Shown one piece after another: positions 4,145 to 30,805 of a DNA stretch of 30,805 bases. Each line of letters begins with the position of its first letter. The stretch's first letter is position 1. A model generated the notes under the pieces. It searched no databases, was not told the origin of the DNA, and was given only the letters and a program-made list of their open reading frames with translations. Source of the DNA: a virus. Location of the stretch: IMG/VR virus record IMGVR_UViG_3300022752_003250, positions 1 to 30,805 of that record; one strand, 5' to 3'. The translations under genes and the position numbers were made by a program.

Positions 4145-5092
4145 ATGAATATACAGGGCGAGTATGTATTTTATGAAGATGGAAAAGAAGTTTGCCGTAC
4201 AAAAAATCTGCTTACCAAGTATGGTAAAAGATTTCTAACCTCCTATTTAGCTGGAGTTGTTCCCTTTGACAATAAAGATATAGCAATTGGAATTGGAAAT
4301 ACTGCTGCTTCGGTAAACAATACACAGCTAGAGTTTGAATTCTATAGATCTGCCGTAAGTTTGGGAAGCATTGATATACAAACAAATAGTCTAACTGGCA
4401 ACTCAACATATTCTGTTGTTTATAAAACAACTATTCCAGCGGATATCGTAGGAACAATATATGAGGTAGGCTTATTTCCAACAGCAACTGATGGCAACTC
4501 TGACTACAGTAGTAGATTTATATCTACATTTGAAAATAATTTGAACTGGTTAGATGATTCAGGAGTTGTTGCATCAACAACTACAACGCCAACACCACGC
4601 ATAGGAAATACTTGGTTTAGTATATCAGCAACATCTAATGCATCCAATAAATATAATCTTGCAACTACTTTTGATCTTTCGGGATATAGCCAAAATGATA
4701 GCCTAACCCTAGCATTTAAACAACAGGATACTAATTTAGATTATGTATTTATAAGATTTTATAGCTCTGCTTCAGATTATTATGAAATGAGGTTTGCAGG
4801 AGACTCATCATTATTGAACAAGGTAAGCACATCAGTTTTAAGTAATTTATATAGCTCAGGATTTACAAGTGGTTCTCCAGACGCTACAGCCATAAATAAA
4901 ATATCTGTAGGAGCTAAAGCTAAATCGACAGGAGGAACAACCGTTCTCCTAGACGGATTAAGAATTAATGATGAAGATACATTCAATACATATTCATCTA
5001 TCATTAGTAGATCTGTTTTAACAACACCAATAACTAAATCTTACGGTAGAGAAATTGACGTAGAATATAGAATAGGGCTTTCATTTTCATGA
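4145..5092 (+). CDS. Baseplate / minor tail protein with C-terminal lectin-like domain
   Basis: A 315-aa protein. The start at 4145 is chosen over an in-frame ATG at 4118 because a strong AGGGAGG (4132-4139 region) precedes it and it begins right after the previous stop. The N-terminal ~120 residues (EYVFYEDGKEV, KNLLTKYGKRFLTSYLAG, IAIGIGNTAA, then IYEVGLFP) resemble the N-terminal domain of phage upper-baseplate or tail-spike attachment proteins. Residues ~135-290 are a Ser/Thr-rich beta-sandwich (WFSISATSN, then LAFKQQDTNLDYVFIRFYS) of LamG-like appearance, a probable glycan-binding module. The stop overlaps the next gene (ATGA), so it is coupled to the fibre gene. Confidence 0.6.
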   Translation: MNIQGEYVFYEDGKEVCRTKNLLTKYGKRFLTSYLAGVVPFDNKDIAIGIGNTAASVNNTQLEFEFYRSAVSLGSIDIQTNSLTGNSTYSVVYKTTIPADIVGTIYEVGLFPTATDGNSDYSSRFISTFENNLNWLDDSGVVASTTTTPTPRIGNTWFSISATSNASNKYNLATTFDLSGYSQNDSLTLAFKQQDTNLDYVFIRFYSSASDYYEMRFAGDSSLLNKVSTSVLSNLYSSGFTSGSPDATAINKISVGAKAKSTGGTTVLLDGLRINDEDTFNTYSSIISRSVLTTPITKSYGREIDVEYRIGLSFS

Positions 5093-25437: not shown

Positions 25438-25511
25438 GCAACAGTAGCTTAGTTGGTTAAAGCCCCGAACTCATAATTCGGTAATCGTAGGTTCAAGTCC
25501 TACCTGTTGCA
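25438..25511 (+). tRNA. tRNA with CAU anticodon (Ile2 reading AUA, or elongator Met)
   Basis: Acceptor GCAACAG (25438-25444) pairs with CTGTTGC (25504-25510), discriminator A; anticodon stem CCGAA/TTCGG around CTCATAA, anticodon CAT at 25472-25474; T arm GTAGG-TTCAAGT-CCTAC. CCA is not encoded. The anticodon stem lacks the three G-C pairs of initiator tRNA. AUA codons are very common in the window, and the companion tRNAs also read A-ending codons, so a lysidine-modified Ile2 is favoured over Met, by inference. Confidence 0.92.
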
Positions 25512-25523
25512 CAAGGAGAGCAT

Positions 25524-25835
25524 ATGGATGATGATGAAAAGCTATCAATGTATCTAGAAATGGGTGCTGTTGAATTAACAGGAATGGATGAAAGTGGAGA
25601 ATTTATATTCCAAATTACAGAAAAAGCAAAAGAAGTTGCACCAGAGTTATGGCAAGCTCATCAGGATCACGTAGATAGATCATTAATTCAGCTATACGAG
25701 GCTGGACTAATAAGAGTTAGCTATAACGATAATCTTGAAGCAACTATTGAAATGTCAGAAGAAGGACATGCTCTGGCAAAAGAAATGGGCCTTGTTGAAA
25801 TAGACATGCACGAGGATGATATTCCAAACGATTAA
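25524..25835 (+). CDS. Small acidic protein, possible winged-helix
   Basis: A 103-aa protein with AGGAG about 8 nt before its ATG, lying between two tRNA genes. Two repeats of a strand-helix unit (AVELTGMDESGEFIFQITEKAKEVAPELW; then GLIRVSYNDNLEATIEMSEEGHALAKEMG) resemble the C-terminal half of winged-helix regulators of the MarR/PadR type, but a recognition helix is not convincing. Ends in an acidic tail. Not recognised otherwise. Confidence 0.6.
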   Translation: MDDDEKLSMYLEMGAVELTGMDESGEFIFQITEKAKEVAPELWQAHQDHVDRSLIQLYEAGLIRVSYNDNLEATIEMSEEGHALAKEMGLVEIDMHEDDIPND

Positions 25836-25840
25836 GGAAT

Positions 25841-25913
25841 GCCTTCGTAGCTCAGGGGATAGAGCGAGACTCTTCTAAGGTCTGCGTCGCAGGTTCGATT
25901 CCTGCCGAGGGCG
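25841..25913 (+). tRNA. tRNA-Arg (UCU)
   Basis: Acceptor GCCTTCG (25841-25847) pairs with CGAGGGC (25906-25912), discriminator G; anticodon stem AGACT/GGTCT around CTTCTAA, anticodon TCT at 25874-25876; T arm GCAGG-TTCGATT-CCTGC. CCA not encoded. Reads AGA, the arginine codon most often seen in these phage genes. Confidence 0.95.
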
Positions 25914-25917
25914 CAAT

Positions 25918-25988
25918 GCGGATGTTGCATATTGGTAGTGCCTCTGCCTTCCAAGCAGAAGGGGTGAGTTCGATTCTCATCATCCGCT
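25918..25988 (+). tRNA. tRNA-Gly (UCC)
   Basis: Acceptor GCGGATG (25918-25924) pairs with CATCCGC (25981-25987), discriminator T; anticodon stem TCTGC/GCAGA around CTTCCAA, anticodon TCC at 25950-25952; T arm GTGAG-TTCGATT-CTCAT with one G-T pair. CCA not encoded. Only 4 nt separate it from tRNA-Arg. Reads GGA, an abundant glycine codon here. Confidence 0.95.
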
Positions 25989-25999
25989 CAAAATAAAGA

Positions 26000-26016: not shown

Positions 26017-26460
26017 ATGGACCTATTACTTAAGCTTAAGCAGTTACAGGCTAATACTTTTGTATTTTATACAAAATCACACGGCTACCATTGGAACGTA
26101 GAAGGAATCTTATTTAAACAACTTCACGCATTTTTTAAAGAAATTTATGAGGATGCCTTTGATTCTATTGATACCTATGCAGAGTGGTCAAGAAGACTTG
26201 GCGGACTAGCAACATTTCAGATTGATGAAATACTACAAGCATCTAATATTAAGTATGATTTCCCAACCACATCACCACTAGAGATGATTAGAAATCTACT
26301 AGAATCAAATAATAAAATTATTGCAGATCTAAAAGATGGTTTTGATATGGCTAATGCAGCCAATGAGCAAGGACTTGCAAACTTTATTGCAGAAAGAATT
26401 GACCAACATCAGTTCTGGTCATGGCAACTATCAGCATCTCTTAAGACATCGGTAAACTAA
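26017..26460 (+). CDS. dps: Dps-like ferritin
   Basis: A 147-aa four-helix protein with the full Dps ferroxidase set: H25 (YHWNV), H37 (QLHAFF), D52 and E56 (DTYAE), at the exact family spacing of 12, 15 and 4 residues. Dps dodecamers oxidise and store iron and can bind DNA; the N terminus here lacks a long Lys-rich tail, so DNA binding may be weak. In a phage it could protect DNA from oxidative damage or hold iron during infection. It has a leaderless promoter and ends TAATG into the next gene. Confidence 0.9.
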   Translation: MDLLLKLKQLQANTFVFYTKSHGYHWNVEGILFKQLHAFFKEIYEDAFDSIDTYAEWSRRLGGLATFQIDEILQASNIKYDFPTTSPLEMIRNLLESNNKIIADLKDGFDMANAANEQGLANFIAERIDQHQFWSWQLSASLKTSVN

Positions 26461-28022: not shown

Positions 28023-28031
28023 TGATATAAT
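28003..28031 (+). promoter_or_regulatory. Promoter of HSP20 (TTGTAA-N17-TATAAT)
   Basis: TTGTAA (28003-28008), 17-nt spacer and AATGATATAAT (28021-28031), identical to the 11-mer at 13126-13136. The -10 box overlaps the stop region of the nuclease gene. Predicted start is about 28038. Confidence 0.65.
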
Positions 28032-28033
28032 AT

Positions 28034-28062
28034 ATTAGTACCTGCCTTATGGGGGTACTAAT
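28034..28062 (+). promoter_or_regulatory. Stem-loop / palindrome in the HSP20 leader
   Basis: ATTAGTACC (28034-28042) pairs perfectly with GGTACTAAT (28054-28062) around an 11-nt loop containing CCTT (28045-28048). It spans the predicted transcript start, so it is either a DNA operator or a 5'-terminal mRNA hairpin. The CCTT loop could pair with AAGG of the ribosome site (AAAAGGAG, ~28074-28081). Confidence 0.55.
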
Positions 28063-28087: not shown

Positions 28088-28513
28088 ATGGTAAATACAT
28101 TAGCGATGGATCTTTTTAATGATCCATTCTTTATCGGATTCAATAGAGACTTCGAAAGATTGTCAAGAATCCACAATCACGCAACACAATCAACATACCC
28201 ACCTTACAACGTCATCCAGATGGAAGATGAGGATAGTTTCTGCATTGAAGTAGCAGTTGCTGGTTTCTCAAAAGCTGATCTTGATGTTACTGTAAACGAA
28301 CAAACACTTACAGTAAAGGGTGAAATCAAAACTGAAGCAACAGGAGAAAAGGTAATTCATAAGGGTATTGCAGCCCGTAAGTTTACCCGTGAATTTGCAT
28401 TAGCTGAATTCATTGAAGTAACTGGCGCAGAAGTTAAAGACGGCATGTTGCGTATTTCTTTGGAACGTATTGTTCCAGAGGAAAAGAAGCCAAAAACAAT
28501 TAAAATCAAATAA
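28088..28513 (+). CDS. HSP20-family small heat-shock protein
   Basis: A 141-aa alpha-crystallin-type chaperone. N-terminal arm ~1-40 (DLFNDPFFIGF), crystallin domain ~40-130 (YNVIQMEDEDSFCIEVAVAG, VKGEI, RKFTREFALAEFIEV, GMLRISLERIVPEE), and a C-terminal IKIK anchor resembling the IxI motif. It holds unfolded proteins in large oligomers. Phage copies are known from T4-like cyanophages and may aid host protein or capsid stability. It has its own promoter, a 5' stem-loop and an AAGGAG site at 28076-28081, indicating strong and possibly regulated expression. Confidence 0.9.
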   Translation: MVNTLAMDLFNDPFFIGFNRDFERLSRIHNHATQSTYPPYNVIQMEDEDSFCIEVAVAGFSKADLDVTVNEQTLTVKGEIKTEATGEKVIHKGIAARKFTREFALAEFIEVTGAEVKDGMLRISLERIVPEEKKPKTIKIK

Positions 28514-28521
28514 GGTATAAT
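28511..28521 (+). promoter_or_regulatory. -10 promoter element before structured RNA
   Basis: TAAGGTATAAT, with TATAAT at 28516-28521, overlaps the HSP20 stop. Spacing predicts a start near 28528, at the beginning of the GC-rich hairpins. The -35 is not evident, so strength is uncertain. Confidence 0.5.
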
Positions 28522-28525
28522 AGAA

Positions 28526-28606
28526 ATCTGCACCCCGTCACTGGGGAGTCGCAGATAGCGGGCCGCTACCCGCAGGATGGACCTGAGCATGTCCTCAAAC
28601 TGCTCA
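28526..28606 (+). ncRNA. Candidate structured RNA / cis-regulatory leader
   Basis: A GC-rich island (51 of 80 bases G or C at 28528-28607, hand count) in AT-rich DNA. Helix 1: ATCTGC (28526-28531) with GCAGAT (28551-28556), enclosing CCCC/GGGG (33-36 with 43-46). Helix 2: GCGGG (28558-28562) with CCCGC (28569-28573). Then an H-type pseudoknot: GGAC (28579-28582) with GTCC (28591-28594), crossed by TGAGCA (28584-28589) with TGCTCA (28601-28606). It has a -10 box upstream, no ORF of its own, no U-run, and ends ~22 nt before the FmdB-like start, so a leader element is likelier than a free sRNA. It matches no riboswitch core I know. Confidence 0.6.
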
Positions 28607-28627
28607 CCAACATAGAAAGATAAGAGA

Positions 28628-28810
28628 ATGCCATTCTACGAATATAAGTGTCAGTGTTCACCAGATGAAACAAAAACATTTGAGCGGTCAATCAAAGATG
28701 TAGAACCAGAATACAATTGTGAAAAGTGTAACGCTGTAATGACAAGACATTATGGATCATTCGGAATACAGTTTAAAGGTACTGGCTTTTATAAAACAGA
28801 TAACAGTTAA
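28628..28810 (+). CDS. FmdB-type zinc-ribbon protein
   Basis: A 60-aa protein with the FmdB/CxxC_CxxC_SSSS-type layout: MPFYEYKCQC at the start, C31-x2-C34 (CEKC), then the GIQFKGTGFYKTD ending typical of this family. Bacterial members are small putative regulators of unclear function. The preceding ~100 nt contain a structured RNA candidate and a -10 box. The ribosome site is only a purine run (AAGATAAGAGA), so leader structure could affect translation. Confidence 0.8.
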   Translation: MPFYEYKCQCSPDETKTFERSIKDVEPEYNCEKCNAVMTRHYGSFGIQFKGTGFYKTDNS

Positions 28811-28833: not shown

Positions 28834-28887
28834 TATGATATAATTCTTAAGTAAACAAAAATATTGTTTTACTTAGGAGAATCCTAA
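28834..28887 (+). promoter_or_regulatory. Promoter and two mutually exclusive leader hairpins
   Basis: TATGATATAAT at 28834-28844; start near 28851. Hairpin A: TAAGTAAACAA (28848-28858) with TTGTTTTACTTA (28864-28875), one bulge. Hairpin B: TTAGGA (28873-28878) with TCCTAA (28882-28887), loop GAA, which buries the AGGAG ribosome site directly before the TTG at 28888. A and B share 28873-28875, so they compete. Confidence 0.55.
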
Positions 28888-30805
28888 TTGACTAGAATTA
28901 AGATATTATTTGCCAGCCTATTTGTCATGGGCTGGTTGTTTTTTGTAGGACCAACTTATGCATATGCTGATGATCCAGCACCAGTAGAGCAAGTGGTTGT
29001 AAGTCCAGCTCAACAAGCAGTGAATAATGCTTTGGCTACCGCAACTACAGAAGTTAACCAAGCAGTTGATGCTTCAAATAATACTACCACGGTTATACAG
29101 ACTGCTACTACTGCTGTAGCAGCAGCAAATACTGCAATACAGGCACAAAATACTGCAATTTCAACAGCAAATACTGCTATTCAAGCAGCTTCAACAGCAG
29201 TTACAACAGCAAATTCTGCTGTATCAGAAGCTACCACAGCAACAACAAATGTTAATACTGCAGTAAGTCAAGTTACTGATCTTACTCCAACAACTACCAC
29301 AGTTACCACAGCTGCCACTGAAGCAACTCAAGCTGTAAATTCAGCACAAACTGTTGTAAATAATGCTACTACATTATCAGCTGCAAATTCAGCTCAAACA
29401 GCGGTAACATCTGCGGCCTCAACTGTTGAATCATCTACTGCCACAATAATTTCTAGCGTTGCAACTCAAGTTAACCCTGATCCATCTACTCTTACTCAAG
29501 TATCACAGGTGGTATCTGATGCGACTACATCAGTTTCAACAGCTCAAACTGCAATACAAACAGCAAATACTGCAATTACTACTGCATCTACTGCAATTGA
29601 TTCTGCTACGGCTACAATTGCTACAGCAAATACAGCAGTAGAGTCTGCAACAGCTACTGTGGCTGCAGCTAATACAGCAATAACTGCTGCAAATACTGCA
29701 GTAACAGCAGTTTCTACTGCTAGGACAAATGCTCAGACACAGTTAACAGAGGCAAACGTTGCAATTAATAATGCACAAGATGCTGTGAACGCCTTGGCTG
29801 CAACAATTGGAGCATCAACAAATGTACTGGCGAATACTGATGATGCAGGGATACGAATGAACCTTCCATTTAATTTAAGAATGGGTAATACTGTTTATAA
29901 TAATATATACGTTGGATCTAACGCAACAATTACATTTGGGGTTAACGAAGGCGGTAATTACTATTCAACTCCTTCGGCCCCATCTATATCTGTTGCAGGA
30001 TACGACTGGACTACTTGGAGTAATGGATCTGGAGTTACTTATTCAACTACTACTAATACTCTTGCTGTTGCTTGGGATGTTCGTCCATATCCTCAAATGA
30101 CCGCCGATACTCAAATGACACAAATTAGATTTAATGCAGATGTTAATCCAACAGATGGGGCTTGGATGGCAGATGTAAGCGTTACTGGTCCAATCCCCAC
30201 TGGAGCAAGATTTAATTATAGAGAGACCACAAACGGCCCAATTACTGCAATAGTAGATACAAATTCAGGGCCTGGATTTAATGGAACATTAAGTCAGGGA
30301 GCAGCTTTTACCCCTACCCCAGATCCATCGACAGCAGCAATTCAAACAGCAATTGATAATGCTAATGCTCAAATTGCAACATTAAATGCTACTATAACTA
30401 ATGTTGTAGCAACTAATAATGCCAATAATGCAGTATCTGTAACTGCGCCAAGGCCCTCACAAACTACATTACAAACAAATACATTAAATTCAGCTGCCAA
30501 CACATTAGCTCAAGCAAGTACAACTCTTGCAACAAATGTATCTACAGTAGAAACAGCCACAGCTACATTACAAACAAAAACAGAAAGCTTGGCAACAGTT
30601 TCACAGGCTGTAGAAACAGTAACTATTCAATCATCTAATATTCAAAGCATACAATCTAATTTAACTTCGACTATTGAACAAAAAACTGCAGAAGAATCTG
30701 CTAGAGTAGCAGCAGAACAAGCAGCAGCCGCTGCAGCAGCACAAGCCGCTGCAGAAGCACAAGCAGCCGCAGCAGCACAAGCAGCCGCACAAGCCGCTGC
30801 AGAAG
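28888..30805 (+). CDS. Large secreted heptad-repeat protein (3' end beyond window)
   Basis: Open for 639 codons to the window edge. TTG 28888 is fixed by an in-frame TAA immediately upstream (28885-28887) and AGGAG at 28875-28879. Residues 1-28 form a Sec signal peptide (TRIK, long hydrophobic core, AYA before DDPAP). Residues ~35-310 are Ala/Thr/Asn heptads (ANTAIQA-like), a predicted extended coiled coil. Residues ~318-470 form a beta domain (NLPFNLRMGNTVYNNIYVGSN, SVAGYDWTTW, AWDVRPYPQ), then a TPTPDP linker, a second helical region, and an Ala/Gln/Glu stalk. Adhesin-like architecture. It may coat the infected cell or act as an unusual fibre; not recognised. Confidence 0.8.
   Translation, partial: MTRIKILFASLFVMGWLFFVGPTYAYADDPAPVEQVVVSPAQQAVNNALATATTEVNQAVDASNNTTTVIQTATTAVAAANTAIQAQNTAISTANTAIQAASTAVTTANSAVSEATTATTNVNTAVSQVTDLTPTTTTVTTAATEATQAVNSAQTVVNNATTLSAANSAQTAVTSAASTVESSTATIISSVATQVNPDPSTLTQVSQVVSDATTSVSTAQTAIQTANTAITTASTAIDSATATIATANTAVESATATVAAANTAITAANTAVTAVSTARTNAQTQLTEANVAINNAQDAVNALAATIGASTNVLANTDDAGIRMNLPFNLRMGNTVYNNIYVGSNATITFGVNEGGNYYSTPSAPSISVAGYDWTTWSNGSGVTYSTTTNTLAVAWDVRPYPQMTADTQMTQIRFNADVNPTDGAWMADVSVTGPIPTGARFNYRETTNGPITAIVDTNSGPGFNGTLSQGAAFTPTPDPSTAAIQTAIDNANAQIATLNATITNVVATNNANNAVSVTAPRPSQTTLQTNTLNSAANTLAQASTTLATNVSTVETATATLQTKTESLATVSQAVETVTIQSSNIQSIQSNLTSTIEQKTAEESARVAAEQAAAAAAAQAAAEAQAAAAAQAAAQAAAE
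29100..29810 (+). repeat. 21-nt-period coding repeat (heptads)
   Basis: The DNA repeats about every 21 nt units such as GCAAATACTGCAAT or CAACAGCAAATACTGC, most regular at about 29130-29260 and 29540-29720, encoding ANTAI-x-x heptads. Codons vary between copies, so this is an old or protein-selected repeat, not a recent tandem expansion. Confidence 0.75.

Follow-up and report, generated by a model that had tools for sequence, protein, structure and literature searches.

The window analysed here, a stretch of 30,805 nucleotides of viral DNA, carries a compact element between an HSP20/alpha-crystallin gene and a small FmdB-like gene. The respective features are:

28088-28513, + strand: HSP20/alpha-crystallin gene upstream of the element (Pfam PF00011)
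28516-28521, + strand: -10 promoter box TATAAT, directly 3' of the HSP20 stop codon, from the sequence
28526-28556, + strand: leader module 1, helix 1 enclosing helix 2, based on 30 distinct homologues
28526-28531 and 28551-28556, + strand: helix 1, ATCTGC with GCAGAT, from the sequence
28533-28536 and 28543-28546, + strand: helix 2, CCCC with GGGG, from the sequence
28558-28573, + strand: leader module 2, i.e., helix 3 (GCGGG-CCGCTA-CCCGC), with paired arms 28558-28562 and 28569-28573
28579-28605, + strand: conserved H-type pseudoknot core, based on covariation in its stems S1 and S2
28579-28582 and 28591-28594, + strand: S1, GGAC with GTCC, from the sequence
28583-28584, + strand: L1, CU, from the sequence
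28585-28589 and 28601-28605, + strand: S2, GAGCA with TGCTC, from the sequence
28595-28600, + strand: L3, UCAAAC, from the sequence
28628-28810, + strand: FmdB-like small zinc-ribbon gene downstream of the element (60 aa), whose relatives match phrog_1076 (FmdB-like) and PF09723

The GC content is 52.5% in 28520-28639 and mostly 24-46% in the surrounding intervals. According to the ORF list of the window, no ORF of at least 40 aa lies on the + strand of the element region, as an earlier note on this sequence had already stated. The pseudoknot is present as a single copy, i.e., not in a tandem array, and 22 nt separate its end from the FmdB-like start codon. The window's own FmdB-like protein shows no Pfam match at E≤0.001. 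The TATAAT right after the HSP20 stop codon also recurs in many relatives. When folded alone, the nested structure of the element reaches a z-score of -2.2 with 6/200 shuffles being equally stable, which is modest; we judged this value too weak as sole evidence, and the case rests on comparison.

Beside the element, two more TATAAT boxes are found in the window (28025-28060 and 28836-28880), located 5' of the HSP20 gene and of the gene at 28888, respectively. Both are closely followed by small hairpins (GTACC..GGTAC in the former, AGTAAAC..GTTTTACTT in the latter), such that 5' hairpins may be general in the transcripts of this phage. The gene at 28888 is a long, repetitive Ala/Thr-rich ORF with a signal-like start (28888-30804) that runs past the window end and gave no match in a Pfam search. 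Three tRNA genes (for Met, Arg-TCT and Gly-TCC) as well as a ferritin-like gene of the Dps type are located at 25438-25989 and 26017-26460.

We compared 30 distinct homologous leaders with the same module order. Here, 96.3% of cells are paired, compared to 38-46% when the partners are slid, and 35 double-sided changes are observed versus 12.6 in shuffles. That is, the compensatory changes in homologues, which the earlier note had named as a check of its proposed fold, were found. They are located in helices 1, 2, 3 and S1, where leader module 1 shows them in 3/10 pairs and helix 3 in 2/6 pairs, with the outer pair of the latter occurring as UA, GC, GU and AU. Within these closely related leaders, S2 varies only by a change from C-G to U-G at one pair. 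When considering the pseudoknot alone in 64 diverse sequences, 97.9% of the cells are paired with 162 double-sided changes versus 51.5, whereby this set was pre-filtered for pairing such that the unfiltered tests carry the weight.

With regard to S1, 173/174 unique instances collected without an S1 filter form at least 3 bp, while shuffling the 5' flanks among the instances yields a mean of 37. With regard to S2, searching IMG/VR for the core CCTGAGCATG..AAACTGCTC returned at least 120 stretches. The compensated versions CCTGAACATG..AAACTGTTC and CCTGAGTATG..AAACTACTC also returned at least 120 stretches each, whereas the uncompensated combination CCTGAACATG..AAACTGCTC occurs in 5 stretches of the whole collection. 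Furthermore, among loci fetched via HSP20, i.e., without selecting for the knot, all five S2 pairs are formed in 32/40 candidates with S1 and AAACT, compared to a shuffled expectation of 18.9, with the observed set comprising 8 sequence types.

In total, 517 pseudoknot instances were collected, while Markov-shuffled sequence gave 0; related phages among the carriers do not count as independent samples. The second S1 pair is UA in 238, AU in 234, CG in 33 and GC in 12 instances. S2 shows 22 pair types of the form RRRYA/URYYY and accepts a U-G wobble (GAGTA/TGCTC in 49/517). The consensus order of the core is S1, CU, RRRYA, S1', AAAC, URYYY. Constant are the C-G pair atop S1, L1 (CU), the last S2 pair (A-U) and the AAAC before S2, where CU and AAAC are constant in part by construction since the search patterns fix part of the consensus. 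The window's 28579-28605 fits this family with its C-G atop S1, CU in L1, RRRYA/URYYY, an L3 ending in AAAC and intergenic location. The same pseudoknot, with stems changed yet complementary, is found 5' of several FmdB genes in loci fetched via the FmdB protein.

Given that the comparative evidence, i.e., kept pairing and double-sided changes, is decisive, we accept the structure: the element contains an H-type pseudoknot that is under selection at the RNA level, on the sense strand and between genes. The GC-rich, multi-helix RNA with a pseudoknot after a -10 box that had been proposed from the window alone is thereby confirmed by both sequence and covariation.

The earlier note had not recognized a known class in this RNA, and the database search agrees. 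At gathering scores, Rfam 15 reports only tRNAs for the whole window. When lowering the stringency to E≤10 for 28480-28660, four chance-level matches (E 0.8-2.8) are listed, none of which is above its family cut-off, and relatives gave no Rfam match. STAXI (RF01728, cut-off 40.5 bits) and manA (RF01745, 55.2 bits) are both associated with phages or mobile elements. Neither cut-off is reached in 11 element-bearing records, and STAXI shows no match at all in the window record. STAXI is also mainly a pseudoknot but forms a tandem array, in contrast to the phage knot; manA is known from cyanophages and from the vicinity of ibpA chaperone genes. Small H-type pseudoknots borne by phages and plasmids are also known from the RNAs of type III toxin-antitoxin systems (ToxI-like). 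The phage knot differs from these by occurring as single intergenic copies at diverse genes, with no tandem array or adjacent toxin gene noted. In the open-access literature, which was the scope of our search, no description of the pseudoknot was found. We thus provisionally consider the family as new, without an entry in Rfam 15.

To describe the genes next to the knot, protein families were defined as clusters in the pattern-derived loci, with identities taken from PHROG/Pfam scans of representatives and from the sequences. HSP20 is found upstream of the knot in 17/18 units. A family of unknown function (LSVPYPIIKLTNKQKE...; L174:4952-5447 on the - strand and relatives) is located immediately upstream in 18/31 dereplicated units and never downstream, and another unknown family in 11/20 units. 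Further upstream families are DUF932-like proteins (7/13), ribonucleotide reductase (6/13) and a single-strand DNA-binding-like protein (6/22). Recurrent downstream families are fewer, the recognized ones being scaffold protein (7/8) and glutaredoxin (4/6).

The loci fetched via HSP20 provide 66 distinct 3' flanks, of which 40 hold the strict knot and 13 more a knot with one S2 mismatch. Among the others, 3 show apparent variants, and in the remaining 10 another conserved RNA takes the position of the knot. A knot 5' of HSP20 is observed in only 1/66 cases, and the gene 3' of the knot is of many different kinds or missing. For FmdB, the knot is located at most 150 nt upstream of the start codon in 24/76 distinct cases. 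Since the association with HSP20 is far more constant than that with FmdB, calling the window's element an HSP20-FmdB boundary element is more apt than calling it a leader of FmdB.

This bears on the function put forward in the earlier note, i.e., a riboswitch or other sensing leader of the downstream gene. The order within the window, with promoter, leader modules and knot directly 5' of the FmdB-like gene, is what such a leader would look like. However, the knot adjoins many unrelated genes as well as tRNAs, or has no gene downstream, copies recur at different genes within one phage, and FmdB is often found without it. In addition, it overlaps neither a ribosome-binding site nor a terminator: it ends about 20 nt before the start and off the ribosome-binding site, such that no expression platform is evident. 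We therefore rejected the FmdB riboswitch as the main reading due to its failing gene association and regard a sensing leader of the downstream gene as very improbable.

The knot is not restricted to relatives of the window's phage. In the Lactobacillus phages phig1e, KC5a, jlb1 and phiEF-1.1, in Staphylococcus phage StB12 and in Streptococcus phage Javan271, it is located between portal/minor-head and scaffold-capsid genes. In roseophage SIO1, Lentibacter phage ICBM2 and Celeribacter phage P12053L, it separates ribonucleotide reductase from a glutaredoxin-like gene. It is found directly 5' of tRNA genes in Arthrobacter phage Molivia and Nostoc phage NMeng1, about 180 nt before a tRNA in Mycobacterium phage Labelle, and 5' of the primase gene in the crAss-like phage cr7_1. 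Further carriers are the cyanophages S-EIVl and S-RIM4, Paracoccus phage ParMal1 and gut phages, while E. coli phage flopper has an imperfect version. Most named phages hold one copy, and IMG/VR records hold up to six; a reversed control pattern gave none in these whole-record counts. Host assignments cover named phages only, and short BLAST queries are insensitive. Set aside as chance matches were three Pseudomonas loci within coding sequence (L203, L205, L280), BLAST matches lacking the structure (e.g., in Staphylococcus phage Romulus), and the matches in Vibrio and Borrelia. Taken as a whole, the pseudoknot family is distinct and very widespread among unrelated bacterial viruses.

The exact core is also matched by 87 stretches of bacterial genomes, many of which have S1. 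Some of these are CRISPR spacers (L278:930, L224 on the - strand at 4557, and possibly L211:1786), found in Poribacteria and Saprospira between repeats, with 13 and 112 repeat copies in the loci. This suggests that phages of Poribacteria and Saprospira carry the knot. Another group of bacterial loci from several phyla consists of genes for peptides of about 20 aa, (R)F..PR.AHC..GC..S, that take their UGA stop codon from the pseudoknot core (L264:3859, L239:285, L273:1047, L227 on the - strand, L243, L252, L261, L272, L268, L221, L248, L230). Some of these HCxxGC peptide genes have an intrinsic terminator 3' of the knot. Here, the knot appears to be put to another use than in the phages.

We also evaluated the placement relative to ORFs, which were called by a simple script and not by a gene finder. 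Only 3/453 usable instances are located inside a same-strand ORF of at least 150 aa, and for most instances both the upstream and the downstream neighbour are on the same strand. Between the upstream stop codon and the invariant C in S1, the distance has a hard minimum of 7 nt and a mode of 8 nt; between the pseudoknot end and the next ORF start, the mode is 20 nt. This spacing keeps the knot clear of both ribosomes. On the other hand, 124 same-strand instances are located at least 40 nt after the upstream stop, and some have no same-strand upstream gene. An in-frame extension of the upstream ORF passes the knot in 34/153 cases and exceeds 60 nt in 11.

Frameshift-inducing pseudoknots show a spacing similar to the 8 nt between stop codon and knot. 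Those of luteoviruses (e.g., beet western yellows virus) resemble the phage element in layout: they are also H-type, their L1 has 2 nt and begins with C, their junction has 1 nt, and their L3 is rich in A. In contrast to them, the phage element is not traversed by a reading frame but follows stops and precedes starts or tRNAs. Given the missing continuation of the frame, a frameshift or readthrough pseudoknot was rejected. The sharp spacing could alternatively point to a translation insulator. Here, a knot at the mRNA entry of the ribosome on the stop codon would prevent sliding into the next gene or tRNA after termination, or tune termination and re-initiation. The coremin xrRNA of plant viruses, which also stalls scanning ribosomes (PMC10520033), provides a parallel. 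Nevertheless, the distant instances and those lacking a same-strand upstream gene do not fit an insulator, nor does the low share of in-frame extensions beyond the knot, and we consider this explanation unlikely, if still one to reckon with.

With regard to tRNAs, 26 instances end 3-13 nt (mode 4) 5' of a same-strand tRNA. Among the 453 usable instances, none precedes an opposite-strand tRNA and only 1 is found within 80 nt after a tRNA. tRNA-Asp accounts for 18/26 cases, which may share descent, such that there are fewer than 26 independent origins; 8 tRNA types are represented among those with a called identity. Phage self-cleaving ribozymes typically occupy intergenic and tRNA-adjacent positions, too, and a very small ribozyme cleaving transcripts in intergenic gaps and 5' of tRNAs would agree with these sites as well as with a compact fold with conserved unpaired bases. 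However, neither the window nor its relatives match a known Rfam ribozyme class, the classes known to us are all larger than the about 27 nt of the knot, and the flanks do not reveal any conserved position as a cleavage candidate, which renders a ribozyme improbable. The placement also bears on a DNA-level element, e.g., a single-stranded DNA structure or a recombination or packaging site. Several copies per genome and DNA-binding proteins among the neighbours would be in line with such a role, but the fixed sense orientation, the set spacing to stops, starts and tRNAs, and the U-G wobble tolerated in S2, which points to RNA, leave it hardly any probability.

Finally, about 14 HSP20-type loci have 6-8 nt between the end of TATAAT and S1, which places the knot at the predicted +1. 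Such promoter-proximal placement could reflect that a phage regulator or a widely conserved host factor (e.g., a ribosomal protein, RNase or RNA polymerase) binds here, for instance in antitermination or operon regulation. The conserved unpaired C-U and AAAC as well as the invariant closing C-G and A-U pairs might then serve as contacts. Against this, S1 and S2 take almost any paired sequence and leave few bases for recognition, the hosts span many phyla such that the factor would have to be near universal, and triplex contacts within the knot would also explain the conserved bases. A protein site is thus unlikely, but together with the translation insulator it forms the strongest competition for the reading we prefer; a ribozyme or riboswitch is less likely than these two, and a DNA-level role is unlikely.

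We tentatively favour, at somewhat less than an even chance, that the knot acts as a folded barrier between neighbouring messages, i.e., as a boundary for RNA decay or processing. A mechanically stable knot in the untranslated gap would stay folded while ribosomes terminate on its one side and initiate on the other. The knot would have to remain folded in translated transcripts, and limiting the spread of decay or trimming between the segments of a polycistronic transcript appears to be the simplest use of such a knot. In the case of the window, the knot would serve as the 3' border of the HSP20 part of the RNA. Together, knot and hairpin modules would make up the 5' leader of a transcript that starts from the TATAAT box and carries the FmdB-like gene. 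Where a tRNA follows, RNase P cleavage would give the upstream RNA a new 3' end about 4 nt beyond the knot, and the knot could shield this end from 3' exonucleases; at transcript starts, it could shield the 5' end. That is, the tRNA cases favour 3'-end protection and the promoter-proximal cases 5'-end protection. Since the knot occurs in several kinds of context (after genes, between genes and at 5' ends of transcripts), one direction cannot explain all of them, and a two-way boundary could unify tRNA and promoter-proximal cases.

Single-direction versions were thus not adopted. A strictly 3' barrier alone does not cover the promoter-proximal cases. A strictly 5'-to-3' barrier against RNase J alone is at odds with the knot preceding, not following, tRNAs and with its imperfect version in phage flopper, whose host E. 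coli is not known to have RNase J. Nuclease resistance as the purpose, the enzymes and the direction are all inferred. Against a barrier speak the HCxxGC peptide genes, which have the knot shortly 5' of an intrinsic terminator and their stop codon inside it: a barrier before a terminator seems redundant, and with a stop codon inside the knot, translation would disturb the fold.

The more specific reading, i.e., that a new and near-ubiquitous class of phage pseudoknots blocks RNA-degrading enzymes of bacteria and thereby creates independently stable transcript segments, is possible but doubtful. It would make the knot the phage counterpart of the exoribonuclease-resistant RNAs of eukaryotic viruses. 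Among these, the coremin xrRNA (xrRNA-C), found in RNA viruses of plants and fungi, is reported to stall the exonuclease Xrn1 as well as scanning ribosomes; it has a loop of 4-8 nt with a YGAD-type consensus and requires a second hairpin directly after a spacer (PMC10520033). Both RNAs are of similar size, combine a short hairpin with a functional loop and a conserved spacer, and are located in untranslated or intergenic regions of viral RNAs. On the other hand, the consensus of the phage element comprises an explicit S2 of 5 covarying bp but no second hairpin, its loop CUGAGCAU departs from YGNNAD (consensus as stated in PMC10520033), and it is found in DNA phages of bacteria, where Xrn1 is absent. 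We claim no homology.

It is poorly understood how neighbouring genes on the long and compact transcripts of phages come to differ in RNA stability. The knot would be a general-purpose regulatory part that annotation has overlooked, possibly because covariance models omit pseudoknots. If it protects RNA, phage gene order, RNase P, exonucleases and differential expression become linked in a testable manner, and the knot offers itself as a compact RNA-stabilizing tag. Whatever the mechanism, the consensus allows for annotation across many phage genomes at once.

The surroundings of the knot are variable. Related phages exchange the leader modules for others while the knot is kept. Exchangeable modules 5' of the knot are found in HSP20-type phages (L027, L033, L053, L098, L177, L617 and others), with GTCGGGGGAGACAGCGAC..AAATAACTGG and GGACACGGGCTAATAGTTACGCCTTAGGAT as examples; the leader module of L617 has no match in Rfam. 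In L561, L563, L564, L565, L566, L568, L569, L583, L592 and L623, the other conserved RNA replaces the knot after the HSP20 stop. It shows GGATGGATTAGTTACC enclosed by a long outer stem (in L563: AGTCCCCACATGGG..CCCGTGTGGGGCTT) and gave no Rfam match for L563. Tandem pseudoknot cores are rare outside L130, where two to three cores in a row follow one gene (7407, 7485 and ~7540), the third being altered (CCTGAGCATTTAGTTGTAAAACTGCTC).
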